Origin: Pseudomonas sp. PDNC002
Lineage (GTDB): Bacteria > Pseudomonadota > Gammaproteobacteria > Pseudomonadales > Pseudomonadaceae
Direction: 5' to 3'
DNA: 64,000 bases
Assembly: GCF_016919445.1 (NCBI RefSeq)
Contig: NZ_CP070356.1
Coordinates: forward strand, 4,157,502 to 4,221,501
Positions 19,589-59,418 of the stretch are shown piece after piece. The notes beneath the pieces are model-generated. The model made no database searches, was not told where the DNA came from, and saw only the letters and a list, made by a program, of their open reading frames with translations. Each line of letters opens with the position of its first letter. Position 1 is the stretch's first letter. A program made the position numbers and the translations under genes.

Positions 19589-20125
19589 TCAGCGGCGGCC
19601 TTCTTCCAGGCCCTTGAGGGTCTTGCGGCAGTGGATCAGCGCGTCGCGCACCATGAAGTTCACCAGCGTCGGGGAGACGCCCAGTTCCTCGGCGATCTCC
19701 TTCTGCGTGCGGCCGTGCAGGCGGTACATCTCGAAGGCATAACGGGTGCGCTCGGGCAGCGTCTGCAGGGCGCTGGAGATGGCCTCCAGGGTCTGCCGGT
19801 CCTCGTGCTCCATTTCCGGTGACGCGGACGCCGTCGCGACGTGCATGCCTTCTTCCTCGCTACCGGAGTAGCGCTTCTCCAGCGCCTGGCGGCGATAGAG
19901 ATCGATGGCCAGGTTGCGCACCACGCGCATCAGGTAGCCGCTCTGCGACTGGATGCCGGGGGTGAGGTCGCTCGCATTGAGCTTGATGTACGCATCGTGC
20001 ACCACGTCTTCGGCATGGCTGCGGCAGCCGAGGATGCGTGCGGCCGCATTGATGAAGGTCTGCCGGTGGGTGGCGAACAGCTCGTGGAGAGCAGGGCGCG
20101 ACTCGGCGGGCATTAGCTTGGACAT
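19589..20125 (-). CDS. pvdS: PvdS-like ECF iron-starvation sigma factor
   Basis: A 178-aa ECF sigma factor. Region 2 contains AARILGCRSHAEDVVHDAYIKL and RNLAIDLYRRQALEKRYSG; region 4 contains LPERTRYAFEMYRLHG and then EIAEELGVSPTLVNFMVRD. The YSG-EEEG segment between regions 2 and 4 and the region 4 wording closely match PvdS of pyoverdine producers and OrbS of ornibactin producers as I recall them. The gene is preceded by a sigma-70 promoter overlapped by a Fur box, and it is divergent from the biosynthetic operon. IS-box promoters upstream of mbtH, pvdA and the acyltransferase gene are its likely targets. It lacks a neighbouring anti-sigma gene; FecI/FecR farther along are a separate pair. 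Confidence 0.88.
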   Translation of the reverse strand: MSKLMPAESRPALHELFATHRQTFINAAARILGCRSHAEDVVHDAYIKLNASDLTPGIQSQSGYLMRVVRNLAIDLYRRQALEKRYSGSEEEGMHVATASASPEMEHEDRQTLEAISSALQTLPERTRYAFEMYRLHGRTQKEIAEELGVSPTLVNFMVRDALIHCRKTLKGLEEGRR

Positions 20126-20182
20126 GCAAGGTGTTCCTATGCGGCGGCGGAGGCGGGGACGTCCACATGGGTTGAGGCGGTC

Positions 20183-20211
20183 AATCTAGATCAAATGATA
20201 ATTATTATCAA
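20183..20211 (-). promoter_or_regulatory. Sigma-70 promoter with Fur box for sigma gene
   Basis: On the minus strand TTGATA (plus 20206-20211) and TAGATT (plus 20183-20188) are 17 bases apart. The spacer and -35 are covered by an AT-rich Fur-like box at 20192-20210 (TGATAATTATTATCA core). The Fur-box match is nearly perfect to the 7-1-7 pattern. This places the PvdS-like sigma under direct iron repression. Confidence 0.8.
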
Positions 20212-20376
20212 TTTATTCGGAAGACTCCGACTATCGCTCTGGAACAGGGTTCCCACACAAGTGTGAAGTTTTTTCATTCGCATCCATTCGTCAGAACTCT
20301 CGACTTACAGGTGAAGGACAAGCCACGAAATTTCGCCGGCACATATCTTATGAGAATTAATCGCATCCGAGAACAC

Positions 20377-20400
20377 TAACTATTTCATTGCCTCCCTCGT
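20377..20400 (+). promoter_or_regulatory. PvdS-type (IS box) promoter upstream of mbtH
   Basis: TAACT at 20377-20381, 16 bases, then CGT at 20398-20400. The consensus for PvdS promoters is TAAAT-N16/17-CGT, so there is one mismatch. It sits about 73 bases before the chosen mbtH start and would drive the biosynthetic operon. A weaker Fur-like half site (TGAGAAT near 20351) is just upstream. Confidence 0.65.
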
Positions 20401-20473
20401 CTTCATGGCAGAGCTGGAAAAACTGGGTAATGGCCCAGCGCCGGCATCGCCATTTGGAGAGAGGAGAAGAGCA

Positions 20474-20692
20474 ATGGCTTTCGATCGCGAAGACGCGGTT
20501 TACAAGGTGCTGGTCAACGGCGAAGAGCAGTACTCGCTGTGGCCTGACTACAAGGAAGTCCCGGCCGGCTGGCGCGAAGCCGGTCAACGCGGGAGCAAGG
20601 CCGAATGCCTGGCTTTCGTCGAGGCCAACTGGACCGACATGCGCCCGCTGAGCCTGCGGCAGAAGATGGACGGCCAGGCGGCGGGGCACTGA
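20474..20692 (+). CDS. MbtH-like protein
   Basis: ATG 20474 after GAGAGGAGAAGA gives 72 aa; the longer frame from 20405 would begin on the promoter's predicted transcript start and is rejected. The signature is [21 protein letters not shown] with the invariant Trp residues and the closing WTDMRPLSL. MbtH-like proteins bind and activate adenylation domains of partner NRPSs. It heads the operon mbtH-thioesterase-hydroxylase-NRPS1-NRPS2-hydrolase, three bases before the thioesterase start. Confidence 0.93.
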
Positions 20693-20695
20693 CCC

Positions 20696-21418
20696 ATGCT
20701 GCGTCTGTTCTGCCTGCCGTACTCCGGAGCCAGCGCCATGATCTATGCGCGCTGGAAGCGCCAATTGCCGGAATGGATCGAGGTCTGCCCGGTGGAGTTG
20801 CCCGGCCGTGGCCGGCGTTTCGCTGAAAGCCTGCAGACCGACCTGCGGGCCTTGGCCGGCCAGTTGGCCGACGAGATCGCCGGACGCCTGGATCAGCCCT
20901 ACGCGCTGTTCGGCCACAGCCTTGGCGGCCTGCTGATCTTCGAGCTGGCCCATGCCCTGCGCGAACGTGGCCTGCCCATGCCCAAGGCGCTGTTCGCCTC
21001 GGCGGCCTCCGCGCCGTCGCGCCGCGACAGCCACCGCGAGCTGGCGGAAGAGCAGAGCGACGCGCAACTGATCGAGCGCATGCAGCGCCTGGGTGGCACC
21101 TCCGCGGCCGTCTTCGCCGATGCCGAGATGCTCGCCCTGACCCTCCCGGTGATGCGTGCCGACTTCCTGCTCTGCGGCCTCTACGACTATCGCCGCCGTC
21201 CGCAGTTATCGTGCCCGATCCATGTGTTCGGCGGCAAGGGTGACCGGCTGTCCGTCGAGTCGCTGTCGACCTGGCAGGACGAAACCTGCGCCGGCTTCTC
21301 CCTGGAGATGCTCGAAGGCGGCCACTTCTTCATCAACACCGACGAGGCGCGCCTGCTCGAGCTGATGCTCGGCCGCCTGCAGCAACCGGGGCAGCCGTCC
21401 AGCGCAGCGCTGGCCTGA
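20696..21418 (+). CDS. Type II thioesterase
   Basis: A 240-aa alpha/beta hydrolase of the NRPS type II thioesterase family: LFCLPYSGASAMIYARWK at the start, nucleophile elbow FGHSLGGLL (Ser near residue 80), acid GDRLS near residue 182 and His GGHFF near residue 210. These enzymes clear misloaded or stalled carrier proteins. Here it may also matter for product release, because neither NRPS ends in a thioesterase domain. Immediately downstream of mbtH, 22 bases before the hydroxylase start. Confidence 0.92.
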   Translation: MLRLFCLPYSGASAMIYARWKRQLPEWIEVCPVELPGRGRRFAESLQTDLRALAGQLADEIAGRLDQPYALFGHSLGGLLIFELAHALRERGLPMPKALFASAASAPSRRDSHRELAEEQSDAQLIERMQRLGGTSAAVFADAEMLALTLPVMRADFLLCGLYDYRRRPQLSCPIHVFGGKGDRLSVESLSTWQDETCAGFSLEMLEGGHFFINTDEARLLELMLGRLQQPGQPSSAALA

Positions 21419-21440
21419 GCGCCCCACGCGGAGAATCCAG

Positions 21441-22421
21441 ATGCCCACGTCCACTCTGTTCGATATCGCTCCCCTGGCTGAAGCGCGTGGCGGCCTGCCG
21501 TTGCTGGTGCAGGCGCGCGGCGAGGGTATCGACCTGCTCGATGCCCTGGCCGAACTGCGCCCGCTGGTTGAAGAGCGTCTGCCGGTGTGCGCCGGCATCC
21601 TCTTCCGTGGTTTCCAGGCCGGCGCGGCGGAACGCTTCCGCGAGTTCGCCGCCGGCTTCGGCCATCCGCTGCTCAACTACGAGTTCGGTTCCACCCCGCG
21701 CAGCAACGTCACCAGCGGCGTGTACACCTCCACCGAATACCCGCCGCACCAGCACATCCCGCTGCACAACGAGCAGGCCTACACCCGCGAGTGGCCGATG
21801 AAGATCTGGTTCTACTGCGTGCAGGCCGCGCAGAGCGGCGGCGAGACCCCCATCGCCGACAGCCGTGAAATTTACCGCCGGGTGGACGAAGGCATCCGCC
21901 GCCGTTTTACCGAACGCGGGCTGATGTACACGCGCAACTTCGGCAACGGCCTGGACGTGGCCTGGGAGCAGGTGTTCAACAGCGACGACCCGGCCGTGGT
22001 CGAGGCCTACTGCAAGACCCACAAGATCGGCTGGGAGTGGAAGGAAGACGGCGAGCTGCGCACCCGCCAGGTCTGCCAGGCCGTCGCGCAACACCCGGTC
22101 ACCCGCGACTGGGTCTGGTTCAACCAGGCACACCTGTTCCACGTCTCCAACCTGCCGCCGGAAGTACGCGAGAGCCTGCTGGAAATCGTCGACGAGGAAG
22201 ACCTGCCGCGCAACGTCTACTACGGCGATGGCAGCCCCATCGAGCCCTCGGTACTCGACGAAGTGCGCGGCGTGCTGGAGGAGGCCAAGGTGAGTTTCCC
22301 CTGGTACAGCGGCGACGTGCTGATGCTCGACAACATGCTGGCGGCGCATGCGCGCTCGCCGTTCAGCGGGCCGCGCAAGGTAGTGGTGGCGATGGCGGAA
22401 GGGCATGGCGCGGATGCCTGA
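21441..22421 (+). CDS. SyrP-like TauD-family beta-hydroxylase
   Basis: A 326-aa Fe(II)/2-oxoglutarate dioxygenase. The iron facial triad can be read as LHNEQ (His and Glu, about residues 110-112) and the distal His in DNMLAAHARSPF near residue 304. Homologues (SyrP, and OrbG of the ornibactin cluster) hydroxylate NRPS-bound aspartate at the beta carbon. That fits module 2 of NRPS1, whose code predicts Asp. beta-Hydroxyaspartate then chelates iron. In operon with the thioesterase upstream; a 226-base gap with repeats separates it from NRPS1. Confidence 0.9.
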   Translation: MPTSTLFDIAPLAEARGGLPLLVQARGEGIDLLDALAELRPLVEERLPVCAGILFRGFQAGAAERFREFAAGFGHPLLNYEFGSTPRSNVTSGVYTSTEYPPHQHIPLHNEQAYTREWPMKIWFYCVQAAQSGGETPIADSREIYRRVDEGIRRRFTERGLMYTRNFGNGLDVAWEQVFNSDDPAVVEAYCKTHKIGWEWKEDGELRTRQVCQAVAQHPVTRDWVWFNQAHLFHVSNLPPEVRESLLEIVDEEDLPRNVYYGDGSPIEPSVLDEVRGVLEEAKVSFPWYSGDVLMLDNMLAAHARSPFSGPRKVVVAMAEGHGADA

Positions 22422-22442
22422 GTTTTCGGATGGCACGAACTA

Positions 22443-22647: not shown

Positions 22648-43312
<20,665 letters not shown>

Positions 43313-43316
<4 letters not shown>

Positions 43317-44275: not shown

Positions 44276-45160
44276 CCAAGTTCATGCTCCAACGGGCGTG
44301 GCAATCCTGTAGGAGCGGATCTTATCCGCGATCCGGCCGGCAGGCCGACAGCGGAAGAATTGCATCGCTGTCGCGATGATCGCGGAGAAGCTCCGCTCCT
44401 ACGAAAGCGTAGGCTCCTTCGCGCTGCGGATCGGCCTCGGCGTTCGCGGCGCGCTAGTAGCCGTGAACATGCCCCTGCGGGCGTTGCAGCCCTGTAGGAG
44501 CGGATCTTATCCGCGATCCGGCCGGCAGGCCGTCAGCGGAAGAATTGCATCGCTGCCGCGATGGTCGCGGAGAAGCTCCGCTCCTACAAAAGCGTAGGTT
44601 CCCTCGGGCTGCGGATTAGCCTCGGCGTTCGCGGCGCGCTAGTAGCCGTGAACATGCTCCCGCGGGCGTGGCAAACCCGTAGGAGCGGATCTTATCCGCG
44701 ACCCGGCCGGCAGGCCGTCAGCGGAAGAATTGCATCGCTGTCGCGATGATCGCGGAGAAGCTCCGCTCCTACGAAAGCGTAGGCTCCTTCGCGCTGCGGA
44801 TCGGCCTTGTCGCTCGCAGTGCGCTAGTCGCCGTGAACATGCTCCCGCGGGCGTGGCAAACCTGTAGGAGCGGATCTTATCCGCGATCCGGCCGGCAGGC
44901 CGTCAGTAGAAGAACTGCATCGCTGTCGCGATGGTCGCGGAGAAGCTCCGCTCCTACGAGAGCGTAGGGTCCCTCGGGCTGCGGATTAGCCTTGGCATTC
45001 GCGGTGCGCTAGTCGCCGTGAACATGCTCACGCGGGCGTGGCAAACCTGTAGGAGCGGATCTTATCCGCGATCCGGCCGGCAGGCCGTCAGCGGAAGAAC
45101 TGCATCGCTGTCGCGATGGTCGCGGAGAAGCTCCGCTCCTACGAGAGCGTAGGTTACCTC
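44276..45160. repeat. Five-copy 185-bp tandem array of REP doublets
   Basis: This fills the gene-free stretch between two convergent genes. The motif TAGGAGCGGATCTTATCCGC begins at 44310, 44495, 44680, 44865 and 45050, exactly 185 bases apart each time. Each unit has an inverted arm ending GCTCCGCTCCTAC (44402, 44587, 44772, 44957, 45142), so it is a 93-bp REP doublet plus a 92-bp spacer. The spacer resembles the 3' end of the permease gene just beyond the array (45170-45195). Units differ by a few substitutions. The 73-codon frames that recur within units shift frame at each unit and are not genes. Confidence 0.92.
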
Positions 45161-45170
45161 GCTATTTGGA

Positions 45171-47180: not shown

Positions 47181-48087
47181 GGGCGGCCTCCGTGGCGCTG
47201 TCCAGATAGGCGGCGATGCGTTCGGCCAGGTCCAGCACCGAGGCGGCGCCGGCGTAGGGATAGAAGCGCTGCAGGGTCAGTGTGTGGCCCTGGCGCACGG
47301 CGGGCAGGTTGGCCCAGAGGTCGTTGGGCTGCCGCAGGCTCTGCAGGCGCGCCGAGGTGGTGGGAATGTCGACGTAGACCAGGTGCGCATCCGGGCGCTC
47401 GGCCAGGCGTTCGATGCTGACCATCGCCAGCCCGACCGGTCCGACCGGGCCTTGCCAGGCATTCACCAGGCCGAGGCGATCGAGCACGTCCTGCACCATG
47501 CTGTTCTTGCCGTAGACCGCCGCGTGGCGGCCGTCCTGGTTGAGCACCGCGACGCACACCGGTGGCTGCGGGCGTCTCGCCAGCTTCGCGCGCAGTTCGG
47601 CCAGGCGCTGCTCACCGGCGCCAATGTAGTCGGCGGCGACCTGCTCGACGCCCAGGCGGCGGGCCAGGTCGCTCATGAAGTCGGTAGTGGCCTTCCAGGC
47701 GCCCTCGGGAGCCGGGTAGATGGCCACCTTTTCGGTCGGCGCAATGCCGTTGAGCCGACGCTGCAAGGTCGGCGTCATCGGGTCGCTGAGGATCAGTTGC
47801 GGTTGCAGCTGCTGGATCAGTTCGAGGTTCGGTTCCCAATACGGGCCCACGTCACGCACGCTGTCCGGCAGCGCCATCGTGGGCATGCGCACCCGGTAAT
47901 AGCGGTCGTCGGAGATCGCCAGGGGCGCGACGCCCAGGGTCAGCAGCGTCTCGGCGGCGACCCAGTTGAGGGCAACGATGCGCGTCAGGGCTTCTCCAGC
48001 GAGGACGACTCGGGCCGGTAGCCCGGCGGCGCAGGCCAGTCCACCGATGGCGAGACTGTGCAGCAGATGACGGCGGGTGAGGGACAT
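47173..48087 (-). CDS. FhuD-like siderophore-binding periplasmic protein
   Basis: ATG 48087 gives 304 aa; the longer frame to 48117 is not needed. The N-terminus has a twin-arginine signal (SLTRRHLLHSLAIGGLACAAG), as in FhuD. The mature part is a PeripBP_2 fold: RIVALNWVAAETLLTLGVAP, then PNLELIQQLQPQLILSD. It should carry the ferric siderophore from the outer-membrane receptor to the fused permease. It is separated from the receptor gene by 100 bases containing a hairpin (48118-48143). Confidence 0.9.
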   Translation of the reverse strand: MSLTRRHLLHSLAIGGLACAAGLPARVVLAGEALTRIVALNWVAAETLLTLGVAPLAISDDRYYRVRMPTMALPDSVRDVGPYWEPNLELIQQLQPQLILSDPMTPTLQRRLNGIAPTEKVAIYPAPEGAWKATTDFMSDLARRLGVEQVAADYIGAGEQRLAELRAKLARRPQPPVCVAVLNQDGRHAAVYGKNSMVQDVLDRLGLVNAWQGPVGPVGLAMVSIERLAERPDAHLVYVDIPTTSARLQSLRQPNDLWANLPAVRQGHTLTLQRFYPYAGAASVLDLAERIAAYLDSATEAAHV

Positions 48088-48117
48088 CGAACTTCTCCGC
48101 TTGCATTGAAACGACAA

Positions 48118-48186: not shown

Positions 48187-50583
48187 TTACCAGCTGTACT
48201 TCACACTGGTCATGACGGTGCGGCGCAGGCCCGGGTAGCAGGAGATGGGGCTGTCGCAGGTGGCTGCGTATTCCTCGTCCAGCAGGTTCTGCGCGTTCAC
48301 CGAGAGGGTCACGTTCTTGTTCAGCGGGTAGCTCACGCCGGCGTCGAACAGGGTGTAGTTGTCGACGTGGTAGGTATTGGCGTTGTTGCCGTACAGCGAG
48401 CCGGTGTAGCGCACGCCGCCGCCGATGGAGAGGCCGTCGGCCGCGCCTTCGTGGAAGGTGTAGTTCAGCCAGCCGTTGGCCATGTGCTCGGGCACGTTGG
48501 CCGGGCGGTTGCCCTGGTTGCCGTCGTTGCTGTCGGTGATCTTGGCCTTGGTGTAGGTGTAGGAGGCCAGCAGGTCCCAGTTCTGGTCCAGCTTGGCTTT
48601 CAACTCGGCCTCGATGCCGCGGGAACGCTGCTCGCCGGTCGGCTCGTTGAAGCCGGTGGGAACGCCGTTGGCGTTCAGCTGCGGGGTCAGGATGTTCTCT
48701 TTGGTCAGCTCGTAGGCGGCCAGGGTGATCAGCAGGGTTTCGTCCGGCTGGAACTTCACGCCCGCTTCGTACTGGTGGGCTTCGCTGGCCTTGAAGGCGC
48801 CGCCGTCCGGGCCGATTCCCGAGTTGGGCACGAAGGACTCGGAGTAGCTGATGTAGGGGGCCAGGCCGAAGTCGGTCAGATAGGTCAGGCCGACGCGACC
48901 GGTGAAGGCGTTGTCCTTCTGCATGGTGTGCGCGGAGGTATGGCTGTCGAGGTCGTTGCGCACGTAGTCGTAGCGGCCGCCGGCGGTGAGGATCCAGTGG
49001 TCGTCGAACTTGACCTGGTCCTGGATGTAGCCGCCCACCTGCTGGATGGTCTGGTCGTAGTTGATCGCCTGGCCGGGGAGGGTGGTGTCCTTGGTCGGGC
49101 GCTGGACGCTCTGGCCGTACTGCGGGTTGTCCAGGTTCAGCGACGGGCCGAGGGTGCGCCAGCGGGCGACGTCGGCGTCCTGCCAGCTATAGTCGGCGCC
49201 CATCAGCAGGGTGTGCTTGAGCGGGCCGGTGTCGAAGTTGGCCTGCAGTTGGTTGTCCAGGTTGAAGGTATTCAGGTGCTGGTCGAAGCGGTCCGCGGTG
49301 CGGATGATGTTGCGCCCGACCTTGGCCTGCGGCAGCAGGTTGTTGAAGATCAGGTCGACCTGGCCGTAGCGCGCGTTCTGGCGAAATTCCCAGACGTCGT
49401 CGAAGCGATGGCGGAACTCGTAGCCCAGGGTGTACTGGTCCTGGCTGAAGTGGTTGTAGCTGTGGTCGCCCAGCAGAGTGCCGGTGGTGTGGCCGTTGAC
49501 GCTGTAGTCGAAGATCGAGCCGGAGTTGCGGTCACGCAGGAAGTCGGTGAGCACGGTCAGGCTGGTGTCGTCGTCCGGCGCCCAGGTGAAGGACGGGGCG
49601 ATGTAGAGGCGGTCGTCCTCGACCTCGTGGCCGTCGTCGTATTCGGCCTGGGTGTTGGCGTCGCGGGCGAGGCCGACGACGCGGTAGAGGAACTGGTTCT
49701 GATCGTCCAGCGCGCCGCCCAGGTCGAACTGGCCCTGCTTGCGGTCATGGTTGCCGCCGGTCAGTTCCACTTCGTTGATGTGGTTGGCGGTGGGCTTCTT
49801 GCTCACGCGGTTGACGATGCCGCCGGCGTCGCCCATGCCGAACAGGCTGGAAGACGGGCCACGGACCACGTCGATGCGCTCGAAGGCATAGGGCTCGCTG
49901 CGAAAGAAGGCGTAGTTATTGTTCTGCTGACGCAGGCCGTTGAGGTAGTCGCTGGTGGCCTGGGCGTTGAAGCCGCGGATGTACAGCCAGTCGAAGCCCT
50001 TGGGGTCGAGGCCGTAGGCTTCCACTTTCACGCCGGGCACATAGCGCAGCGCCTCGGTCACGGTCTGGGCGCCCTGGGCGTCCATCTGCTTGCGGGTGAT
50101 CACGGAGATCGACTGCGGGATTTCCAGCAGCGGGGTGTCGGTCTTGCTGCCGCTGTTGGAGGTGCGCGGCACGTAGCTGTCTTCACCTTCGATGGCGCCG
50201 GTGATGACCTGGGCGGACATGTTCAGGGTGTCGCCGCTGGCGGCGTCGGCGCCCAGCAGGGTCACGCGGCTGCCTTCGACCTGGTACTTGATGCCGGTGC
50301 CCTGCAGCAGGCGTTCCAGCGCCTGGGTGGGCTCCATCTGGCCGCGTACGGTCGGCGCGCGCAGGTTCTGCACCTGGGTCTGGTTGAAGACGATCTGCAG
50401 GTTCGACTGGGTGCCGAGGCTGGTCAGGGCGGAGGCCAGCGACTGGGCCGGAATGTCGATGCGGACCGGAGCTGCCTCGACGGCGGAGGCGGCCAGGACC
50501 ATCCCCAGGGCGGTGGCGCGGACCAGGCGGGCGAGGGGCTTCACCGGGTGCTGGGATTGCAGCGCAGAACGGGTGCGACTCAC
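48187..50583 (-). CDS. TonB-dependent siderophore receptor with signalling domain
   Basis: A 798-aa outer-membrane receptor with a GTG start preceded by AGGAG. The signal peptide ends in EAAPVRI. Residues about 40-110 are a STN (secretin/TonB N-terminal) domain (IPAQSLASALTSLGTQSNLQ, then LERLLQGTGIKYQVEG), which in FpvA/FoxA/FecA-type transducers contacts FecR. Plug domain from about 130 (EIPQSISVITRKQMDAQG, RGFNAQATSDYLNGL, RGPSSSLFGMGDAGGIVN) and a beta barrel ending in VKYSW. It should import the cluster's ferric siderophore; specificity cannot be read from sequence. Followed by binding protein and permease; preceded by exporter, FecR and FecI. Confidence 0.93.
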   Translation of the reverse strand: MSRTRSALQSQHPVKPLARLVRATALGMVLAASAVEAAPVRIDIPAQSLASALTSLGTQSNLQIVFNQTQVQNLRAPTVRGQMEPTQALERLLQGTGIKYQVEGSRVTLLGADAASGDTLNMSAQVITGAIEGEDSYVPRTSNSGSKTDTPLLEIPQSISVITRKQMDAQGAQTVTEALRYVPGVKVEAYGLDPKGFDWLYIRGFNAQATSDYLNGLRQQNNNYAFFRSEPYAFERIDVVRGPSSSLFGMGDAGGIVNRVSKKPTANHINEVELTGGNHDRKQGQFDLGGALDDQNQFLYRVVGLARDANTQAEYDDGHEVEDDRLYIAPSFTWAPDDDTSLTVLTDFLRDRNSGSIFDYSVNGHTTGTLLGDHSYNHFSQDQYTLGYEFRHRFDDVWEFRQNARYGQVDLIFNNLLPQAKVGRNIIRTADRFDQHLNTFNLDNQLQANFDTGPLKHTLLMGADYSWQDADVARWRTLGPSLNLDNPQYGQSVQRPTKDTTLPGQAINYDQTIQQVGGYIQDQVKFDDHWILTAGGRYDYVRNDLDSHTSAHTMQKDNAFTGRVGLTYLTDFGLAPYISYSESFVPNSGIGPDGGAFKASEAHQYEAGVKFQPDETLLITLAAYELTKENILTPQLNANGVPTGFNEPTGEQRSRGIEAELKAKLDQNWDLLASYTYTKAKITDSNDGNQGNRPANVPEHMANGWLNYTFHEGAADGLSIGGGVRYTGSLYGNNANTYHVDNYTLFDAGVSYPLNKNVTLSVNAQNLLDEEYAATCDSPISCYPGLRRTVMTSVKYSW

Positions 50584-50755: not shown

Positions 50756-52444
50756 TCAATGCATCGCCACGCCGGGACTGCCCTTGGCTTGCCTCGCGCG
50801 GTGGTCTTCGATCTCCACGATCTGCCCGGCGCGCATGCGCAGTAGGCGGTCGGCGACGTCGAAATAGCGGTCGTCGTGGGAAATCACGATCAGCGTCTTG
50901 CCCTGTGCCCGCAGCTCGGGCAGCAGTTCGGTGTAGAAGATGCGGCGGAATTCCGGGTCCTGATCCGCTGCCCATTCGTCGAACACCAGCACCGGGCGTT
51001 TCTCCAGCCAGGCCTGCACCAGCGCCAGGCGCTTGCGCTGGCCGGTGGAGAGGTCGGTGGTCGAGAACTCCTGGCCCTGCAGGCTGACCTTGTGGGCGAT
51101 CTCCAGGCGTTCCAGGTAGCGCGCGGCTTCCGCGGGGATGTCCTGGCTGCCCTTGAGCAGGTCTTCGAAGAGGAAGTAGTCGGCGAAAATGGTGGTGAAC
51201 AGCTGGCGGTAGTCGTCGCGATTGAGGTCGGTCACCGGCTCGCCGTTGAGCAGCAGCTCGCCGCCGCGCGGGGCGTAGAGCCCGAGCAGCAGCTTGATCA
51301 TGGTCGTCTTGCCGCAGCCGTTCTCACCGGCAATGAAGAGGATTTCCCCGCGACTCACCGTCAGGTTCAGTGGGCCGACGGCAAAGCCGCGGGTGCCGTC
51401 GTCGGTGGGGTAGTGGTAGGCCAGCTCGCGCAATTCGATGGACTGGAAGTCCAGCGGCCTCCGACCGTCATCGGCCAGTAGCAGGTTCGGCTCTGGCGAG
51501 GAGAAGCGCACCGACAGCTCGGCGATCCGGCGGAACGCGACCTGGGCGCGGGTCACCACCGGCAACTGGCCGATCAGTCCTTCCAGTGGGCCCTTCATGT
51601 ACAGCAGGACGAGGATGAAGCCGGACAGCGTCGCCTGGTCGGTGCTCGGCCACAGCGACTGGTAGGCCAGCGCCACGCCGATGACGATGAAGAACAGCGT
51701 GGAACCAAAGCCCTTGGCGACGTTGAACAGGTTGATCGAGCGCAGCTGGATGTCACAGATTTCGTCCGCGGTGCCCTGCAGGCGCTCGCTGTAGTGCTGG
51801 AAGCGGCGCGGTCGGCTGATGCGCAGCTCCTTGGCGCCCTCGGCGATGGCGCGGTAGTGCTTCTGCAGCTCGTCTTCCTTGTCCCTGGCCTCGAAGAAAC
51901 CCTTGATTCCCTTTGCCCGCGCGACGTACTGCACGGCGCTGCCGACGACGATGGCGATAGCGGTGGCGAGGAACATCGGCGGCGACAGCCAGGCCAGGTA
52001 GCCCAGGCAGCCGAGGGTGGTGGTCAGGGCGACGGCCAGCGGCGCGAAAGCGAAGGCGAAGTCGCTGATGGTGTCGATGTCGTGGGTCAGCACCGGAATC
52101 AGCCGGTGGCTGCGGTAGCGCTCGATCTGCTCGATGGGAGCGGAAATGATCTTGCTGCCCAGGTCCTTGCGCAGACGTGCGATCACGTGCTGGCCAACGT
52201 AGTTGGTGCCCATGTCGGAAATGATCGAGCCCAGCAGCGCCAGTACGCACAGCCCGGCGAAACCCAACAGCAGGCCGGCGGGCATGCCGCCCTGCGAGTG
52301 CAGGCTGTAGTTGATGGTGGCGAGCAGTGCGGTGATGGCCGAGCCGCCCAGAATCCCCAGCAGGGTGGCCGCAGTCAGCGGCAGCCAGTGCGGCCGCAGC
52401 AGTTTGAGCATTTCGCGCAAGGCGCTTGGAGCGGGAGTTGGCAT
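50756..52444 (-). CDS. PvdE/SyrD-like cyclic-peptide-type ABC exporter
   Basis: A 562-aa fused membrane-ATPase protein. About six helices occupy residues 15-300, followed by an ABC domain with Walker A GENGCGKTTM near residue 377, the unusual signature LSTGQRKRLALV near residue 468 and Walker B VLVFDEWAADQDP near residue 483. These signature and Walker B forms are those of the PvdE/SyrD 'cyclic peptide export' family, which moves siderophore or lipopeptide precursors across the inner membrane. It probably exports this lipopeptide siderophore. Its upstream region contains a perfect dyad at 52577-52597 and repeat copy 5. Confidence 0.9.
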   Translation of the reverse strand: MPTPAPSALREMLKLLRPHWLPLTAATLLGILGGSAITALLATINYSLHSQGGMPAGLLLGFAGLCVLALLGSIISDMGTNYVGQHVIARLRKDLGSKIISAPIEQIERYRSHRLIPVLTHDIDTISDFAFAFAPLAVALTTTLGCLGYLAWLSPPMFLATAIAIVVGSAVQYVARAKGIKGFFEARDKEDELQKHYRAIAEGAKELRISRPRRFQHYSERLQGTADEICDIQLRSINLFNVAKGFGSTLFFIVIGVALAYQSLWPSTDQATLSGFILVLLYMKGPLEGLIGQLPVVTRAQVAFRRIAELSVRFSSPEPNLLLADDGRRPLDFQSIELRELAYHYPTDDGTRGFAVGPLNLTVSRGEILFIAGENGCGKTTMIKLLLGLYAPRGGELLLNGEPVTDLNRDDYRQLFTTIFADYFLFEDLLKGSQDIPAEAARYLERLEIAHKVSLQGQEFSTTDLSTGQRKRLALVQAWLEKRPVLVFDEWAADQDPEFRRIFYTELLPELRAQGKTLIVISHDDRYFDVADRLLRMRAGQIVEIEDHRARQAKGSPGVAMH

Positions 52445-52787: not shown

Positions 52788-53807
52788 TTAGAGCTGAACG
52801 TAGCGGCTGGCAAGAACCGTACGGCCCTGGTTGTCCTTGCGCAGCTCCACCGGCAGCACCTTGGGTAGCGAATCCACCAGGGCCTGCAGGTCGTCGGTGC
52901 GGTAGATGCCACCGATGCGCATGGCGGCCGCGGTGGCGTCGTCGAGGAACACCGGTTGCTTGAGGTATCGGTTGATCAGCGGGATGGCGGCCTGCAGGGT
53001 CAGGTCGTCGATCACCAGCTTGCCTTCGGTCCAGGCGATAGCGCCGGCCGGCGCGACCTGAGCCAGTTCGATGCGTTCGCTGCCCTTGATGTAGCGCGCC
53101 TGCATGCCGGGGGTGAGCTGCGCGCTGTTGCCGTCGATGCTGTCCGGCGGGCTGACCACCACCGAGCCCTCGAGCAGGGTGACGAGCATCTGGTTGGCGT
53201 CGGTCCAGACGTTGAAGCGTGTGCCGGTCACCCGCACGCTGCCGTTGTCGGTGAAGACCGAGAAAGGTTGCAGTGTGTCGTGGGCGACCTGGAAGTAGGC
53301 CTCGCCGCCGGTTTTCAACCAGGCGCTGCGGCGCTCGCGGAAGTTGGCGAAGACGAGCTGCGAGTTGCTGTTGAGCTCCACCTTCGAGCCGTCGGCCAGT
53401 TGCACTTCGCGCGGAGTCGGCTGCGCGGCGTAATAGCCGACCCGCGACGGCAGCAAGCCTGCGGACCAGCCCGCCGACCACACGGCGCCCAGTGCCATCA
53501 GGACTCCGGCGGCCACGGCGGCGAGGCGCTTGATGCTGCGGGGACGGCGCTGGTGTCGCCCGCGGATCGGTACGGGGTCGATGATCAGTCCAGGCTCGAT
53601 GTGCGGCGTGGGCGGCAGGAGTTCCGAGAGTTGCCAGATCTCCAGCATCGCCTGGTACTCCTCCTCGTGCCGCGGGTCGGCTGCGCGCCACTGTGCGAAA
53701 GCGGCGCGCTCGGCGTCGCTGCATTCGGCATCGTGCAGACGCGCGCACCAGTGCGCGGCTTCGGCGCAGATGCGGTCATCGTCGAGCGGAGCGGGGGAGG
53801 TTGTCAT
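52788..53807 (-). CDS. FecR-like transmembrane anti-sigma/signal regulator
   Basis: A 339-aa protein. Residues about 10-60 contain the DUF4880 segment (AAHWCARLHDAECSDAERAAF, then EEYQAMLEIW) that binds FecI-type sigma factors; a membrane helix lies near residues 92-115; and the periplasmic FecR domain starts with REVQLADGSKVELNSNSQL near 132. A DUF4974 segment (LPLINRYLKQPVFLDD) closes it. It relays the signal from the receptor's STN domain. It is divergent from the fecI gene at 53935, an unusual orientation because fecI and fecR normally form one operon in that order. Cotranscription with the exporter is unlikely because of the repeat-filled gap. Confidence 0.92.
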   Translation of the reverse strand: MTTSPAPLDDDRICAEAAHWCARLHDAECSDAERAAFAQWRAADPRHEEEYQAMLEIWQLSELLPPTPHIEPGLIIDPVPIRGRHQRRPRSIKRLAAVAAGVLMALGAVWSAGWSAGLLPSRVGYYAAQPTPREVQLADGSKVELNSNSQLVFANFRERRSAWLKTGGEAYFQVAHDTLQPFSVFTDNGSVRVTGTRFNVWTDANQMLVTLLEGSVVVSPPDSIDGNSAQLTPGMQARYIKGSERIELAQVAPAGAIAWTEGKLVIDDLTLQAAIPLINRYLKQPVFLDDATAAAMRIGGIYRTDDLQALVDSLPKVLPVELRKDNQGRTVLASRYVQL

Positions 53808-53934: not shown

Positions 53935-54441
53935 ATGCCCGACGGGGTGGAAAGCGCGTTCATCCGTTATTACAAGGAACTGGTCCTGTACCTGAATCGT
54001 AGCCTTGGCGACCGCCAGGCGGCTGCCGATGTCACCCAGGAGGCTTTCCTGCGCCTGCTCGACCGCAAGGGCGACGAGCATATCGAACAACCGCGCGCGT
54101 TTCTCTACCGCACGGCGGTGAACCTCAGTATCGACCTGCACCGGCGCGGACGCGTGCGCCGCACCGAAGAGCTGGAAAGCCTCGACCGTGAAGGCGTGCT
54201 GGACGAGCGCTGCCCCCAGGAAGAAGCCAGCCAGCAACAACAGTTGCAGATGCTCCAGCGCGCCCTCGCGGAGCTGCCCGACGCCTGTCGCCGCGCGTTC
54301 GTGCTGCGCAAGGTCGACGGCTGCAGCCATGTCGAGATCGCCGAACGAATGGGGATTTCCCGCGACATGGTGGAAAAACACATCGTCAATGCGATGAAGC
54401 ATTGCCGGCTGCGTCTCAAGGCTTGGGGCGGGCAGGGCTAG
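53935..54441 (+). CDS. FecI-like ECF sigma factor
   Basis: ATG 53935 (AGG four bases upstream) gives 168 aa, the usual size for FecI proteins; an upstream in-frame ATG at 53830 would overlap the Fur-like site. Region 2: YYKELVLYLNRSLGDRQAAAD and then VTQEAFLRLL; region 4: LPDACRRAFVLRKVDGCSHV and then EIAERMGISRDMVEKHIVNA. The sigma activates its receptor gene when FecR is signalled. With the PvdS-like sigma at 19589 it gives the locus two ECF sigmas. It is divergent from fecR and is followed by 600 bases of repeats and the pvdA promoter. Confidence 0.92.
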   Translation: MPDGVESAFIRYYKELVLYLNRSLGDRQAAADVTQEAFLRLLDRKGDEHIEQPRAFLYRTAVNLSIDLHRRGRVRRTEELESLDREGVLDERCPQEEASQQQQLQMLQRALAELPDACRRAFVLRKVDGCSHVEIAERMGISRDMVEKHIVNAMKHCRLRLKAWGGQG

Positions 54442-54842: not shown

Positions 54843-54878
54843 TGAGAATCATTCTAAATTTCCCCAGGCCTGTCTCGT
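54843..54878 (+). promoter_or_regulatory. Overlapping Fur box and exact IS-box promoter for pvdA
   Basis: A strong Fur box TGAGAAT-C-ATTCTAA (54843-54857) overlaps TAAAT at 54855-54859, which is followed by exactly 16 bases and CGT at 54876-54878. TAAAT-N16-CGT is the published consensus for PvdS-dependent promoters. The pvdA start lies 164 bases downstream, leaving a long leader that contains no obvious riboswitch. Both signals together imply iron repression plus PvdS activation. Confidence 0.85.
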
Positions 54879-55041: not shown

Positions 55042-56382
55042 ATGACTCAGATGATCACCCCGACCTACGACGTGCTCGGCATCGGTTTCGGCCCCTCCAA
55101 CCTGGCGCTGGCGATCGCCCTGCAGGAGCAGGCGCGACGCGAGGGCCGCCATTACCACGCACTGTTCCTCGATAAGCAGGCGGACTATCGCTGGCACGGC
55201 AATACCCTGGTCGCCCAGAGCGAACTGCAGATTTCCTTCCTCAAGGACCTGGTGACCCTGCGCAATCCCACCAGCCCTTACAGCTTCGTCAACTACCTGC
55301 ACGCCATGGGGCGGCTGATCGACTTCACCAACCTGGGCACCTTCTACCCGTGCCGCATGGAGTACAACGACTACCTGCGCTGGGTCAGCGACCAGTTCGC
55401 CGAGCAGCGCGCCAGTGGCGAGACGGTCAGCCGTGTCGAGCCGGTGCAGGGGCCGGACGGCATCGAGTTGCTCAAGGTGTTGTCCACCGATGCGCGCGGT
55501 CACGAGCGCTTCCGCCTGGCGCGTAGCGTGGTGGTGAGCACCGGCGGCACGCCGCGCTTCCCGTCCGCCTTCAGTCACCTGCGCGATGACCCGCGCGTGT
55601 TCCACCATGCCCGCTACCTGGAATGCATGGCCAAGCAGCGCTGCAACCAGAACGAGCCGATGCGCATCGCGGTGATTGGCGGCGGCCAGAGCGCGGCGGA
55701 AGCCTTCATCGACCTGAACGACAGCTTCCCATCGGTGCAGGTCGACATGGTCCTGCGCGCCGCCGTGCTCAAGCCGGCCGACGACAGCCCCTTCGTCAAC
55801 GAAATCTTCGCCCCGCGCTACACCGACCTGGTGTTCAACGAACCCAAGGCCGAGCGCGAGAAACTGATCCAGGAGTTCCACAACACCAACTACTCGGTGG
55901 TGGACCTGGACCTGATCGAGCGCATCTACGGCATCTTCTATCGCCAGAAAGTGGCGGGCGTGGACCGTCACGCATTCCTCTGCCGCCGCAATGTGGAGGC
56001 CGCCAAGGCCGATGCCGATGCCGAGGGCATCGAGTTGACCCTGCGCGACAGCGCCACCGGCGCGGTGGAGACCCACCGCTACGACGCGGTGATCCTCGCC
56101 ACCGGCTACGAGCGCAAATCCCACCGCGAACTGCTCGCGCCGCTGCAGGACTACCTGGGCGACTTCGACGTGGGTCGCGATTACCGCCTGCAAACCGACG
56201 CGCGCCTACACGCCGGCATCTACCTGCAGGGCTTCACCCAGGACAGCCACGGCCTGAGCGACACCCTGCTGTCGGTGCTGCCGATGCGCGCCCAGGAAAT
56301 CGCCGCGTCGATGTTCGAGCACCTGCCGCCGCAGGAGTCGGCGCACAAACCCTCGCGTCCGCTGACGGCCGAAAGCGCCTGA
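55042..56382 (+). CDS. pvdA: L-ornithine N5-monooxygenase
   Basis: ATG 55042 gives 446 aa, near the 443 aa of P. aeruginosa PvdA. FAD-binding GIGFGPSNLALA at residues 13-24, NADPH-binding VIGGGQSAAEAF near residue 211, and the conserved DFTNLGTFYPCR and ATGYERK late motifs mark the class B N-hydroxylating monooxygenase family. It makes N5-hydroxyornithine, the hydroxamate precursor for modules 1 and 5. Its promoter has an exact IS box and Fur box. A hairpin follows the stop, after which the acyltransferase has its own promoter. Confidence 0.94.
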   Translation: MTQMITPTYDVLGIGFGPSNLALAIALQEQARREGRHYHALFLDKQADYRWHGNTLVAQSELQISFLKDLVTLRNPTSPYSFVNYLHAMGRLIDFTNLGTFYPCRMEYNDYLRWVSDQFAEQRASGETVSRVEPVQGPDGIELLKVLSTDARGHERFRLARSVVVSTGGTPRFPSAFSHLRDDPRVFHHARYLECMAKQRCNQNEPMRIAVIGGGQSAAEAFIDLNDSFPSVQVDMVLRAAVLKPADDSPFVNEIFAPRYTDLVFNEPKAEREKLIQEFHNTNYSVVDLDLIERIYGIFYRQKVAGVDRHAFLCRRNVEAAKADADAEGIELTLRDSATGAVETHRYDAVILATGYERKSHRELLAPLQDYLGDFDVGRDYRLQTDARLHAGIYLQGFTQDSHGLSDTLLSVLPMRAQEIAASMFEHLPPQESAHKPSRPLTAESA

Positions 56383-56388
56383 AGCCAA

Positions 56389-56413: not shown

Positions 56414-56415
56414 AC

Positions 56416-56439: not shown

Positions 56440-56480
56440 CATACGGGCGGGGTCGTTGCATTCACGAAAGGTTATCCATC

Positions 56481-57467
56481 ATGACGCCCAATTTTTCCCT
56501 GCCGCTGCCCGATGGTCGCCAACTGTCCGCCGACAGCGGCGCCGCTGGCCTGACCTTGCTGCTCGACGGCGAGCCGCTGCTGGCTGCGCAACGCGAAGGC
56601 GAGTGCTGGCAGCTCAGTGGTGCAGTCACCCGCGAAGCCCTCTGGGCGCTGGCCTACTGGAGCTTTGCCGTCGACGCGCGGAGCGAGCGTGTGCAGTTCG
56701 CTGCCGCCAGCGTGCCCGCCGAGGCCTTCGAGCAAGGTCTGGTGAGCCGCGATGAAGTCGGTGGCCGCCTGCAGATCGAGCGCGCGGCGTTCTGGCAACT
56801 GCCTGCTGCCTGGCACAAGGGCGTGGCCAGCGCGGACTACCCGCAGGTCTATCGCATGAGCAGCGGCCGCCGTCATCCGCTGCGCGCGCCCAAGCCGCAG
56901 GGTGAGGTCTATCGCCGCTTCGATGCGAAGTTGGGCCAATGGATTTCCCTGCGCACCCTCGACATCGACCTGGACCTGGAGCGCTTCAACCGCTGGCAGA
57001 ACAGCCCGCGCGTGCTGGAGTTCTGGCAGGAAGGCGGCACCCTGGAGCAGCACCGTACTTATCTGGAAAAAGCCGCGGCCGACCCGCACACCACCACCCT
57101 GATCGGCTGCATCGACGACGAGCCCTTCGCCTACTACGAAGCCTACTGGGCCAAGGAAGACCGCATCGCGCCGTTCTACGAAGTGGGCGACTACGACCGC
57201 GGCATCCACATGCTGGTGGGCGAGGAATCCCATCGCGGCCCGCACAAGGTGGAAAGCTGGATGACCGCCCTGGTGCATTACCTGCTGCTGGACGACCCGC
57301 GCACCCAGCGCATCGTCGCCGAGCCGCGCGCCGACAACGCGAAGATGATCGGCCACATGCAGCGCCTGGGCTTCTGGCGCGAGAAGGAATTCAACTTCCC
57401 GCACAAGCGCGCCGCGCTGATGGTGCAGAGCCGGGAAACCTTCTTCGAGCGTTGCGGCCTGTGCTGA
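56481..57467 (+). CDS. GNAT N-hydroxyornithine acyltransferase (IucB/RhbD type)
   Basis: ATG 56481 (AAAGGTT upstream) gives 328 aa. The C-terminal half is a GNAT fold of the AlcB/IucB siderophore acyltransferase family: FNRWQNSPRVLEFWQEGG, TLIGCIDDEPFAYYEAYWAK, DYDRGIHMLVGEE, HRGPHKVESWMTALVHYLL, and the closing GHMQRLGFWREKEF. It acylates N5-hydroxyornithine, most likely with acetyl, giving the hydroxamate. No PvdF-type formyltransferase is present in the locus, so both hydroxamates may carry the same acyl group. Followed 31 bases later by the fhuF-like gene. Confidence 0.9.
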   Translation: MTPNFSLPLPDGRQLSADSGAAGLTLLLDGEPLLAAQREGECWQLSGAVTREALWALAYWSFAVDARSERVQFAAASVPAEAFEQGLVSRDEVGGRLQIERAAFWQLPAAWHKGVASADYPQVYRMSSGRRHPLRAPKPQGEVYRRFDAKLGQWISLRTLDIDLDLERFNRWQNSPRVLEFWQEGGTLEQHRTYLEKAAADPHTTTLIGCIDDEPFAYYEAYWAKEDRIAPFYEVGDYDRGIHMLVGEESHRGPHKVESWMTALVHYLLLDDPRTQRIVAEPRADNAKMIGHMQRLGFWREKEFNFPHKRAALMVQSRETFFERCGLC

Positions 57468-57498
57468 CAGGTTGGTGCTCCGACGCTGAGGGCTGCGT

Positions 57499-58254
57499 GT
57501 GATCGCAGCCCTCGCACCGTTGTACTTCGGCGAGTTCGCCAGCTACCGCGAGGTGCTGGTGACGCGCGACGATCCCCGGCCTTCGATCCCCGTCCGCGCG
57601 TTGCTGGAGCGGGAGATGCTCGACAGCGTGCTGCGCCGCTTCGACCCGCCCCACGCCGATGGCGACCGGCGCGCGCTGGCCTCGCAGTGGTCCAAGTGGT
57701 ACCTGGTGCGGATCGTCCCGCCGGTCGTGGCCGCCGCGCTGGTGCTCGGTCGCACGTTGCCGCTGGACTTCGACGACGTGGACGTGGTGCTGGATGCCCA
57801 GGGCATTCCCGAGGCATTCAAGCTGCCAGGGGAGGGTGGGCCGTTCGCTGCGCCGCCGGGTGATCCGTTCCAGCGCTTCGCCCATCTGCTGGAAGGTCAC
57901 CTGCAACCCTTCGTGCAACGGCTCGCCGCCGAGGTGCGCCTGTCGCCCAAGGTGCTCTGGAGCAACGCCGGGAATTACTTCGAATGGTTCATCGGCGAGA
58001 TGGGCAAGTTGCCGCCGTTGGCGCCGCTGCTGGGACAGGGGCGGGAGCTGCTGGAAACCGAGCGCCGGCCGGATGGCACGCGCAATCCGCTGTACAAGCC
58101 GATCCAGTACGTCGAGGTGCCCTGCGCGCAGCGCCCGGACGGGCTATGGCGGCAGCGGCGTACCTGCTGCATTCGCTATCGGCTGGGGGAGATCGGCAAT
58201 TGCGACAACTGCCCGCTGATCGATGAGCCACCCGCCGAAGCGAGCGATCTGTAG
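57499..58254 (+). CDS. FhuF-like ferric-siderophore reductase
   Basis: A 251-aa protein with a GTG start preceded by GAGGG. The C-terminal [2Fe-2S] ligands appear as RTCCIRYRLGEIGNCDNC (residues about 224-241), the C-C-x10-C-x2-C pattern of FhuF. FhuF reduces Fe(III) in hydroxamate complexes in the cytoplasm to free the iron. It is cotranscribed with the acyltransferase, as in ornibactin (OrbF) clusters. The stop TAG is part of the palindromic repeat that starts at 58251. Confidence 0.88.
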   Translation: MIAALAPLYFGEFASYREVLVTRDDPRPSIPVRALLEREMLDSVLRRFDPPHADGDRRALASQWSKWYLVRIVPPVVAAALVLGRTLPLDFDDVDVVLDAQGIPEAFKLPGEGGPFAAPPGDPFQRFAHLLEGHLQPFVQRLAAEVRLSPKVLWSNAGNYFEWFIGEMGKLPPLAPLLGQGRELLETERRPDGTRNPLYKPIQYVEVPCAQRPDGLWRQRRTCCIRYRLGEIGNCDNCPLIDEPPAEASDL

Positions 58255-58325
58255 GGCACATAACGCGTCAGCGTTATCCGCCATCGAGGATTCTGCGCAT
58301 AACCTGTTCCAGGTTATGCGCCCTA
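58251..58325. repeat. GTAGGGC inverted repeat (same family as in NRPS2)
   Basis: GTAGGGCACATAACGCGTCA opens the element and an arm ending GTTATGCGCCCTAC closes it. It belongs to the family inserted in NRPS2 at 35782-35865. Its first bases supply the stop codon of the fhuF-like gene. It begins the roughly 400-base repeat-filled gap before the convergent ATPase gene. Confidence 0.75.
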
Positions 58326-58357
58326 CGGTGCTTTGTCATGCGTCCTACGGTGCTTTT

Positions 58358-58603
58358 GTAGGAGCGGAGCTTCTCCGCGATCGCGGGCAAAGCCCGCGCC
58401 CATGCACGCGCAATATGCCTCCGCTCGCCGGTTGGCAAGGATTCATCCGCGCAGGATATCGCGGACAAGGTCCGCTCCTACGAGATGCCACCAATGCAAT
58501 ACCCCGTCGCTCACCAGACGGAGTGGAAGCTCTAGCACAGGAACTGTCTCGCCACTGATCGCCGAAGCTTGCATCTCCGTAGGAGCGGACTCTGTCCGCG
58601 ATC
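58358..58603. repeat. REP cluster before the ATPase gene
   Basis: REP arms GTAGGAGCGGAGCTTCTCCG (58358) and GCGGACAAGGTCCGCTCCTA (up to 58480) form one doublet, and a further single arm GTAGGAGCGGACTCTGTCCG lies at 58579. No gene is seen in 58326-58650. It is a likely bidirectional terminator between convergent genes. Confidence 0.75.
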
Positions 58604-58650
58604 GGTCAGGCGTCGCTGTGGATTCGCAGGTTGATTCCGCGTTCAGTAAC

Positions 58651-59418
58651 TCAGCGCAGATAACTGATCGGCGACCCATCCACCGGGTTGTTCAGCACGC
58701 CCATGGGAATCCCGTAGATATCTTCCAGCGTTTCCCCGCGCATCAGCTCCGCCGGCGAGCCCTGGGCCAGCAGGCGGCCTCCATGCAGGGCGATCAGGTG
58801 ATCGCAGTAACGCGCCGCCATGTTGATGTCGTGCAGCACCACCAGCACGCCCAGGCCCAGTTCGCGGCTGAGTTCGTGGACACGGGAGAGCACTTCCACC
58901 TGATGGGCGATATCCAGCGCCGAGGTGGGTTCGTCCAGCAGCAGGTAGCGGCTGTTCTGCGCCAGCAGCATGGCCAGCCAGACGCGCTGGCGTTCACCAC
59001 CGGAAAGCAGGTCTACCGGGCGATCGGCGAAGGCCTGGGTATCGGTCAGCTCCAGCGCTCGGTCGATCTGCTTGCGGTCTTCGCCGGTGACGCGGCCCAG
59101 CGCGCCGTGCCACGGGTAGCGACCGAACGCGACCAGCTCGCGCACGGTCAGGCCGTCGGTCTGCGGCAGTTGCTGCGGCAGGTAGGCCACCTGGCGTGCG
59201 AAGTCGCGGTTGCCCCAGTCCTGCAACGGTTTGCCGTCCAGGCGGATACTGCCGCCGCTGGCCTGCTGCTGGCGGGCCAGCAGCTTGAGCAGGGTGGACT
59301 TGCCCGAACCGTTGTGGCCGATCAGGCCGATCATGTTGCCGTCGGCCAGTTGCAGGCTCAGCGGTTGCAGAAGGGTGCGACCGGGGACGCTGAAACTGAC
59401 ATTTTCCAGTTCGAACAT
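58651..59418 (-). CDS. FhuC/FecE-like siderophore ABC ATPase
   Basis: A 255-aa ABC ATPase: Walker A GHNGSGKST (residues about 34-42), signature LLSGGERQRVW near 137, Walker B YLLLDEPTSALD near 158 and H-loop VVLHD near 192. The VAYLPQQLP Q-loop and QVEVLSRVHEL spacing fit iron-siderophore importers of the FhuC/FepC type. It supplies the ATPase for the fused permease at 45171-47180, from which it is separated by about 11 kb. A Fur-like box lies upstream. Confidence 0.92.
   Translation of the reverse strand: MFELENVSFSVPGRTLLQPLSLQLADGNMIGLIGHNGSGKSTLLKLLARQQQASGGSIRLDGKPLQDWGNRDFARQVAYLPQQLPQTDGLTVRELVAFGRYPWHGALGRVTGEDRKQIDRALELTDTQAFADRPVDLLSGGERQRVWLAMLLAQNSRYLLLDEPTSALDIAHQVEVLSRVHELSRELGLGVLVVLHDINMAARYCDHLIALHGGRLLAQGSPAELMRGETLEDIYGIPMGVLNNPVDGSPISYLR

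Follow-up and report, generated by a model that had tools for sequence, protein, structure and literature searches.

What does the siderophore locus of Pseudomonas sp. PDNC002 make, and is its product new? The window analyzed here is a 64,000-nucleotide stretch (positions 4157502–4221501) of a single-contig 6.39 Mb genome. A complete siderophore locus lies at positions 19589–59418 of the window, and all its named features are open reading frames (ORFs) in the ORF listing and family searches. Because its SyrP-like gene is 96–98% identical to those of P. nitroreducens, P. pseudonitroreducens, and P. nicosulfuronedens, which are among the closest named relatives, we would place the window in the P. 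nitroreducens group. An original prediction, made from the same DNA, had read the locus as one block for an acylated mixed hydroxamate/β-hydroxyaspartate (β-OH-Asp) siderophore; every component that it named was recovered by ORFs and family searches, and the gene set and modules support the class of product. Our analysis indicates that the cluster is likely to be the form that the bokeelamide (bka) siderophore system takes in the P. nitroreducens group, with a predicted product that contains Gly in place of one Ser.

A Five-Module Assembly Line

The peptide would be assembled by two nonribosomal peptide synthetases (NRPSs) encoded on the forward strand, NRPS1 (22648–35436) and NRPS2 (35436–43316), which we parsed using Pfam domains, motifs, and adenylation (A) domain codes. 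NRPS1 begins with a fatty acid-AMP ligase (FAAL) and a thiolation (T) domain, followed by a condensation (C)-A-T module for N5-hydroxyornithine (N5-OH-Orn; DGEACGGVT), a C-A-T-epimerization (E) module for Asp (DLTKVGHVG), and a C-A-T module for Ser (DVWHMSLID). Its first 590 amino acids match structure 7r7g (E = 6.6e-146), which was deposited as a "polyketide synthase," as well as the fatty acid-AMP ligases FadD32, FadD23, and FadD28. NRPS2 adds a C-A-T module for Gly (DILQFGLIW) and a C-A-T-E module for N5-OH-Orn, whose A code is identical to that of module 1 and whose E domain carries the usual motifs. By motif parsing, no thioesterase (TE) domain was found in NRPS2 and no E domain in the Gly module. 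We take DVWHMSLID to specify Ser and DILQFGLIW to specify Gly, as in the standard code tables. For the other two codes, the accessible text of a published study names DGEACGGVTK under Orn-activating domains and N5-modified substrates, and gives DLTKVGHVGK as an Asp/Asn code (PMC12283262). This parse agrees with the originally predicted order of OH-Orn, Asp(E), Ser, Gly, and OH-Orn(E), with donors enough for six coordination sites.

The Cluster Is Collinear with a Locus of the Bokeelamide Species

According to the accessible part of their report, on which all our statements about them rest, bokeelamides from Ectopseudomonas khazarica consist of a lipid, N5-acetyl-N5-OH-Orn, β-OH-Asp, Ser, Ser, and cyclic N5-OH-Orn; the assembly line has E domains in modules 2, 4, and 5, and the genes include bkaL (thioesterase), bkaM (TauD), bkaP (esterase), bkaW (monooxygenase), and bkaX (acetyltransferase) (PMC11574851). 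For comparison we used P. khazarica TBZ2 (L021, genome G025), the layout of which fits this description. All 15 accessory genes are collinear between the window and TBZ2, with order and strand kept and identities of 58%–84%; FhuC was matched over part of its length, as the compared stretch ends there. NRPS1 is 68% identical to its khazarica counterpart over a 4306-position alignment, and the A codes of modules 1, 2, 3, and 5 are the same. Module 4 is different, specifying Gly without an E domain in the window and Ser with an E domain in TBZ2.

Both systems thus have a FAAL start, the series OH-Orn, Asp(E), Ser, a variable residue, and OH-Orn(E), and a last NRPS that lacks a TE domain and is accompanied by a separately encoded type II thioesterase and an esterase gene after NRPS2. 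They also share a PvdA-type monooxygenase, an acetyltransferase, a TauD-family hydroxylase, and hydroxamate import. The window has four of the five bokeelamide modules, and since its module 4 is Gly without E, we file it as a sister variant and not as a bokeelamide producer. The original prediction was not aware of a Pseudomonas siderophore whose residues follow this order; the bokeelamide order differs from it by a single residue, Ser for Gly (PMC11574851), and apart from this change the order can no longer be called undescribed. In the open-licence literature, judged mostly by titles and the beginnings of abstracts, we found no structure for this cluster.

The enzymes that would modify the peptide are encoded on the forward strand at both ends of the locus. 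The bkaL equivalent is a type II thioesterase (20696–21418; PF00975, E = 7.2e-47; 69% identical to khazarica), and the bkaM equivalent is a TauD-family dioxygenase (21441–22421; PF02668; 80%). We presume the latter to be a SyrP-like aspartyl β-hydroxylase from the parallel with bokeelamides. Near the other end, the bkaW equivalent is PvdA (55042–56382; 80%), for which the best solved match is L-ornithine 5-monooxygenase 3s5w (E = 3.6e-196). With lysine hydroxylases matching at E = 1.5e-82 or weaker, PvdA is much closer to enzymes for ornithine than to those for lysine, which favors ornithine as the substrate. The bkaX equivalent is a GNAT acyltransferase of the IucB/SidF type (56481–57467; PF13523; 69%), which matches SidF (7qf6, E = 3e-51) and would act on N5-OH-Orn.

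A Predicted Glycine Variant of Bokeelamide

If the cluster follows the bokeelamide scheme, how would its product be made? PvdA would convert ornithine to N5-OH-Orn, and the FAAL domain would load a fatty acid onto the line, whose five modules would then join N5-OH-Orn, Asp, Ser, Gly, and an epimerized N5-OH-Orn. The SyrP-like enzyme would hydroxylate Asp, and the GNAT would acylate, most likely acetylate, the N-terminal N5-OH-Orn. As the line has no TE domain, a separate enzyme would release the product, and the terminal N5-OH-Orn would probably close to a cyclic hydroxamate. Export by a PvdE-type transporter, uptake through a TonB-dependent receptor and FhuBDC, and reduction by FhuF would complete the cycle, with control exerted by FecR together with two extracytoplasmic function (ECF) sigma factors, and probably also by Fur. 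Because the genes are collinear, NRPS1 is 68% identical, four of five A codes are the same, and module 4 is changed, our best prediction for the product is the hexadentate acyl/N5-acetyl-N5-OH-Orn/β-OH-Asp/Ser/Gly/D-cyclo-N5-OH-Orn. The C12:0 form would have a computed [M+H]+ of 760.409, with the mass lower than that of the corresponding bokeelamide by CH2O. The computed values for other forms are 732.377 (C10:0), 758.393 (C12:1), and 788.440 (C14:0), and that for the Fe form of C12:0 is 813.320. A y1 ion at m/z 131.08, reported for bokeelamides, would be expected here too, whereas y2 would be at m/z 188.10 rather than at the 218.11 of bokeelamides. Chemically, the product looks like a small change to an established design, with one bokeelamide Ser replaced by Gly, and the proposal provides a mass-level prediction for the peptide siderophore that the P. 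nitroreducens group would make.

Several points weigh against this assignment. The product is predicted from genes, and the comparison was made with TBZ2, another strain than the bokeelamide producer EM133. Orthology is the basis for both the acyl chain and the N5-acyl group (the acyltransferase is 69% identical), and A codes cannot separate OH-Orn from acyl-OH-Orn. Epimerization of Asp is also ambiguous: the E motifs of module 2 are largely intact, yet bokeelamides contain L-OH-Asp.

The original prediction differed in its details, as it proposed a linear product in which both ornithines are N5-acylated and OH-Asp is the D isomer. Such a structure would be consistent with the recognizable E motifs in modules 2 and 5 and with the identical A codes of modules 1 and 5, both of which a single acyltransferase could serve. 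However, in the orthologous bokeelamides the N-terminal OH-Orn alone is acetylated, the C-terminal one being an unacylated cyclic hydroxamate, and OH-Asp is L-erythro despite the E domain of module 2 (PMC11574851). The E2 motif of that domain is EGHGRD in the window, khazarica, P. citronellolis, and P. folii, compared with EGHGRE in five other E domains checked. Because bokeelamides contain L-erythro-OH-Asp even though their E2 motif is like that of the window, D-OH-Asp is unsafe, and the doubly acylated linear structure is improbable. We consider that the second OH-Orn is probably cyclic rather than acylated.

Could the product instead belong to another siderophore family? In P. nitroreducens L4, the accessible text lists an NRP-metallophore cluster for which antiSMASH gives crochelin A as the most similar entry (PMC11252606, Table 2), and we infer that it is the same cluster as that in the window. 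A crochelin-type product is nonetheless very unlikely. The label is a most-similar-known-cluster entry only, and our comparisons did not extend to the clusters of L4 and crochelin. Crochelin is described in the accessible text as having at its C terminus a putrescine that is attached by a VibH-like protein whose gene lies elsewhere (PMC10587159), whereas the last domain of NRPS2 is the E domain of the OH-Orn module, with no C domain beyond it.

Other amphiphilic systems resemble the glycine variant in part, as far as the accessible sections of their reports describe them. Marinobactin and formomarinobactin share the FAAL, ornithine hydroxylase, TauD hydroxylase, FhuF, exporter, and an amphiphilic suite, but are built from six residues (Asp-Dab-Ser-OHOrn-Ser-OHOrn; Dab, diaminobutyrate) with a Dab transaminase and an integral TE domain (PMC13037486). 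The window line has neither Asp first nor Dab second, and neither six modules nor an integral TE. Pandorabactin shares the FAAL, an initial acyl-OH-Orn, OH-Asp, and the acyltransferase but is a TE-cyclized hexapeptide with Thr, Ala, Asp, and a 3-hydroxybutyryl hydroxamate (PMC12144892). The lactuchelins of P. lactucae are likewise acylated OH-Asp/hydroxamate lipopeptides of a non-fluorescent Pseudomonas, with FhuBCD and FhuF, but their five NRPS genes make a chain of seven residues that includes two OH-Asp and one Orn (PMC12904278). With its FAAL and five modules, the line in the window also led us to reject a relationship with ornibactin and malleobactin. These share the core of OH-Orn, OH-Asp, and Ser, but have four residues, no FAAL loader, and a putrescine end.

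How Is the Product Released?

Release of bokeelamides was ascribed to either bkaL or bkaP (PMC11574851). In the window, the bkaP equivalent is an HSL-family α/β hydrolase (43313–44275, forward strand; PF07859, E = 7.6e-67), the start of which (43313) overlaps the NRPS2 stop (43316). A search of 298 family genomes, drawn evenly from a larger group, yielded at least 61 HSL homologues at E = 1e-70 or better among the best candidates (at most seven) per genome. Of these, 59 loci were checked (all but G098 and G304), and the homologue directly follows an NRPS in 58, an adjacency that is new here. The 59 comprise 42 loci read in detail (40 further loci, G003, and G004), 14 nitroreducens-type genomes, G002, and the pair G293 and G078. 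An NRPS immediately precedes the HSL gene in 41 of the 42, with none in G294. In the nitroreducens-type genomes the HSL gene begins at the end of the NRPS2 match, and in G002 it follows NRPS2; G293 and G078 appear identical to G026 and G034, where it follows an NRPS. Three loci are not new, as G296, G093, and G082 duplicate the genomes G029, G027, and G032.

One possibility, less likely than not, is that the HSL enzyme is a dedicated trans-acting release or cyclization enzyme for peptides that end in N5-OH-Orn, and the sole release enzyme where, as in the window, a TE-less line terminates in an E domain. If so, it would form the cyclic hydroxamate that Pseudomonas siderophores commonly carry at the C terminus, and the question left by the bokeelamide authors (PMC11574851) would be settled. 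Consistent with this tentative proposal, the last A domain before the HSL gene is of the OH-Orn type in 38 of the 41 NRPSs, the other three (G305, G284, G004) being unread. Another idea, that HSL is a plain replacement for a missing TE, was rejected because 27 of the 41 NRPSs carry a TE of their own (called by GWSLG; in G145 by motif only); an E domain closes 13 others (recognized by its motif in 11, by length only in G218 and G082) and one, G210, was unread. An OH-Orn terminus can also do without HSL, since the G014 line ends in OH-Orn, E, and TE with no HSL gene nearby; its HSL homologue (45%) is on another contig. The other two of the three loci read without a nearby HSL gene, G001 and G018, have a last module read as Asp type. 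We therefore tie the HSL esterase to OH-Orn termini, an association seen in sequence comparisons that may or may not extend to replacing the TE.

It is also possible that the type II thioesterase (20696–21418) releases the product, or that cyclization is spontaneous, with HSL doing another job such as editing or intracellular hydrolysis. The TE domains of those 27 NRPSs and the presence of a type II thioesterase in the cluster itself favor this explanation; the overlap of the HSL gene with the NRPS2 stop and its occurrence after OH-Orn-type A domains weigh against it. We regard the chances of the thioesterase or spontaneous route as about even. With this cluster, the release mode of TE-less, OH-Orn-terminated lines becomes directly testable.

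A Likely History of the Gly Module

Where did the single Gly module come from? P. folii, P. viridiflava, and P. citronellolis have six-module relatives of the line that share its start and end, lack a TE, and have the esterase adjoining the last NRPS. In place of the single Gly of the window, the folii line has Ser(E)-Gly (the viridiflava line was read in two pieces) and the citronellolis line has Gly-Gly. The cores of these relatives read Ser-Gly-Gly in P. citronellolis (L231–L232) and Ser-Ser-Gly in P. folii and P. viridiflava (L239–L242). We know of no product for any of the six-module lines.

For the history of the module, one citronellolis and one folii genome served as reference lines. 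In domain comparisons, the Gly A domain of the window is 83% and 82% identical to the citronellolis Gly domains, 75% to that of folii module 5, and 56% to the khazarica Ser domain. The T domain of the Gly module is closest to those of module 4 of citronellolis (88%) and folii (81%), the latter of which precedes an E domain. The Gly modules read in the nitroreducens-type, citronellolis, folii, and viridiflava lines contain this E-type GGDS T domain without an E domain.

The second C domain of NRPS2 is chimeric, with an N-terminal part of the C5 type and a C-terminal part of the C6 type of the six-module relatives. Among 65 sites that separate C5 from C6, 58 were scorable (seven that match neither were dropped); the first 18 are C5-type by 14 to 4, whereas the last 40 are C6-type by 37 to 3, a pattern that none of 20,000 permutations equaled in extremity. 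The pattern is nearly identical in G015, G022, and G024, which with the window are the four genomes examined, and alignment places the recombination breakpoint at 39321–39456 (forward strand). In the simplest history, the ancestor would have been a Gly-Gly line like that of citronellolis, from which recombination within a C domain removed one module. Such a module loss, which best explains the single Gly module, is new here. It would show how one siderophore line was probably edited, with a module lost inside a C domain and epimerization absent where Gly is used.

Distribution among Related Genomes

Of 25 same-genus genomes, 14 carry the cluster, that of the window among them, and three marker genes occur in the same 14: the esterase (at least 85% identical), the SyrP-like gene (at least 91%), and the acyltransferase (at least 81%; two pieces of 94% and 82% in G017). 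The five-module layout could be read whole in 11, the window included; in the others, NRPS2 lies in several frames (G017) or a contig ends within the NRPS genes (G008, G023). In G017, several frames are needed to cover NRPS2 (C1:1480645–1488555) and likewise the acyltransferase (C1:1829575–1830557), and the SyrP-like match of G024 (C1:2933041–2934015) contains one in-frame TGA; either decay or assembly error could account for these.

Is the single 40 kb locus typical of the group? The NRPS block adjoins the transport/pvdA/acyltransferase block in only three of the 14 genomes (the window, G022, and G024), and the two blocks are about 45–400 kb apart on one contig, as computed from their positions, in five (G006, G009, G015, G017, G020). 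Contiguity is thus not the rule. In the remaining six the blocks are on different contigs, so that their spacing is undecided. The gene order of the second block is kept in the ten non-adjacent genomes read, with the second sigma factor not picked up in G008 and G009 and FhuC not in G013 and G015, and the locus is collinear in khazarica and composti. In the window, a REP-like tandem array (44283–45192; 4.9 copies of a 185-bp unit) separates the esterase gene from fhuB. It marks the point where the two blocks meet, which in at least five relatives lie a long way from each other, and may be a site of rearrangement.

With all 36 candidates from the window's genome scored, every NRPS2 match at E = 1e-40 or better falls within this locus; no second NRPS locus was found, and hence no pyoverdine synthetase. 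The pyoverdine chromophore synthetase has Glu, D-Tyr, and Dab modules. None of the six adenylating domains in the locus belongs to such a module, and the NRPS2 matches show no other NRPS locus. Of 13 same-type relatives, 12 have no other NRPS match at 1e-60 and G009 has one (best 23 of 31–43 candidates per genome). The accessible text on P. nitroreducens L4 lists a "ranthipeptide" cluster, not of NRPS type, for which Pf-5 pyoverdine is given as the closest entry (PMC11252606).

Uptake and Regulatory Genes

As originally predicted, the locus contains a full uptake and reduction set. On the reverse strand are a FhuB-type permease (45171–47180; NF007866, above cut-off), a FhuD-type binding protein (47173–48117, likely ATG start at 48087; best family NF007864, below cut-off), a TonB-dependent siderophore receptor with an STN signaling domain (48187–50583; family searches), a PvdE-type ABC exporter (50756–52444; TIGR01194, above cut-off), and a FhuC-type ATPase (58651–59418; just below cut-off); the FhuF siderophore-iron reductase (57499–58254; TIGR03951, above cut-off) is on the forward strand. 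The MbtH-like protein (20474–20692, forward strand; PF03621), the type II thioesterase, the HSL-family esterase, FecR, and both ECF sigma factors go beyond the components that the prediction listed.

The first sigma factor, a probable cluster regulator, is on the reverse strand (19589–20125; NCBIfam PRK07037, above cut-off) and has a 74% identical khazarica orthologue in the same place. The second (53947–54441, forward strand; ORF listing and family search) is a FecI-like partner of a FecR-type anti-sigma regulator (52788–53807, reverse strand; NF007296, below cut-off, and collinear in khazarica). FecIRA-type systems carry out surface signaling, and the combination of receptor STN domain, FecR, and ECF sigma factor suggests that this mechanism also operates here. 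Iron may act through Fur, as the window contains three matches to a Fur-like 15-mer (TGAGAATNATTCTCA) compared with 0.47 expected, a number reached in one of 100 shuffles. These are palindromes between the first sigma factor and MbtH (20196–20210, forward strand, two mismatches) and upstream of pvdA (54843–54857, forward strand, one mismatch), together with a third match at 20351–20365. No match to the classical 19-mer Fur box was found in the window.

A REP Element within NRPS2

The first C domain of NRPS2 contains an insert of variable length (35763–35889, forward strand), recognized by comparison with relatives, that bears an in-frame GTAG-type repetitive extragenic palindromic (REP)/REPIN palindrome at about 35782–35865 and adds about 35 residues. 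In a structure model of the domain (mean pLDDT 65.6), which was used only to place the insert, it forms a low-confidence loop between two strands. One half of the palindrome, the REP tag half, has 56 exact copies in the genome, compared with none for a reversed-pattern control. According to the accessible text of PMC3733652, other bacteria are also known to have REPs that lie in frame within genes. No REP was found in this C domain of G015, khazarica, citronellolis, or folii, and at most a remnant in G009. NRPS2 contains one copy in the window, G006, G010, and G016, two in G013, half in G020, and re-ordered halves in G007, G022, and G024. Near-copies of the same REP family also occur between fhuF and fhuC (58251–58326).

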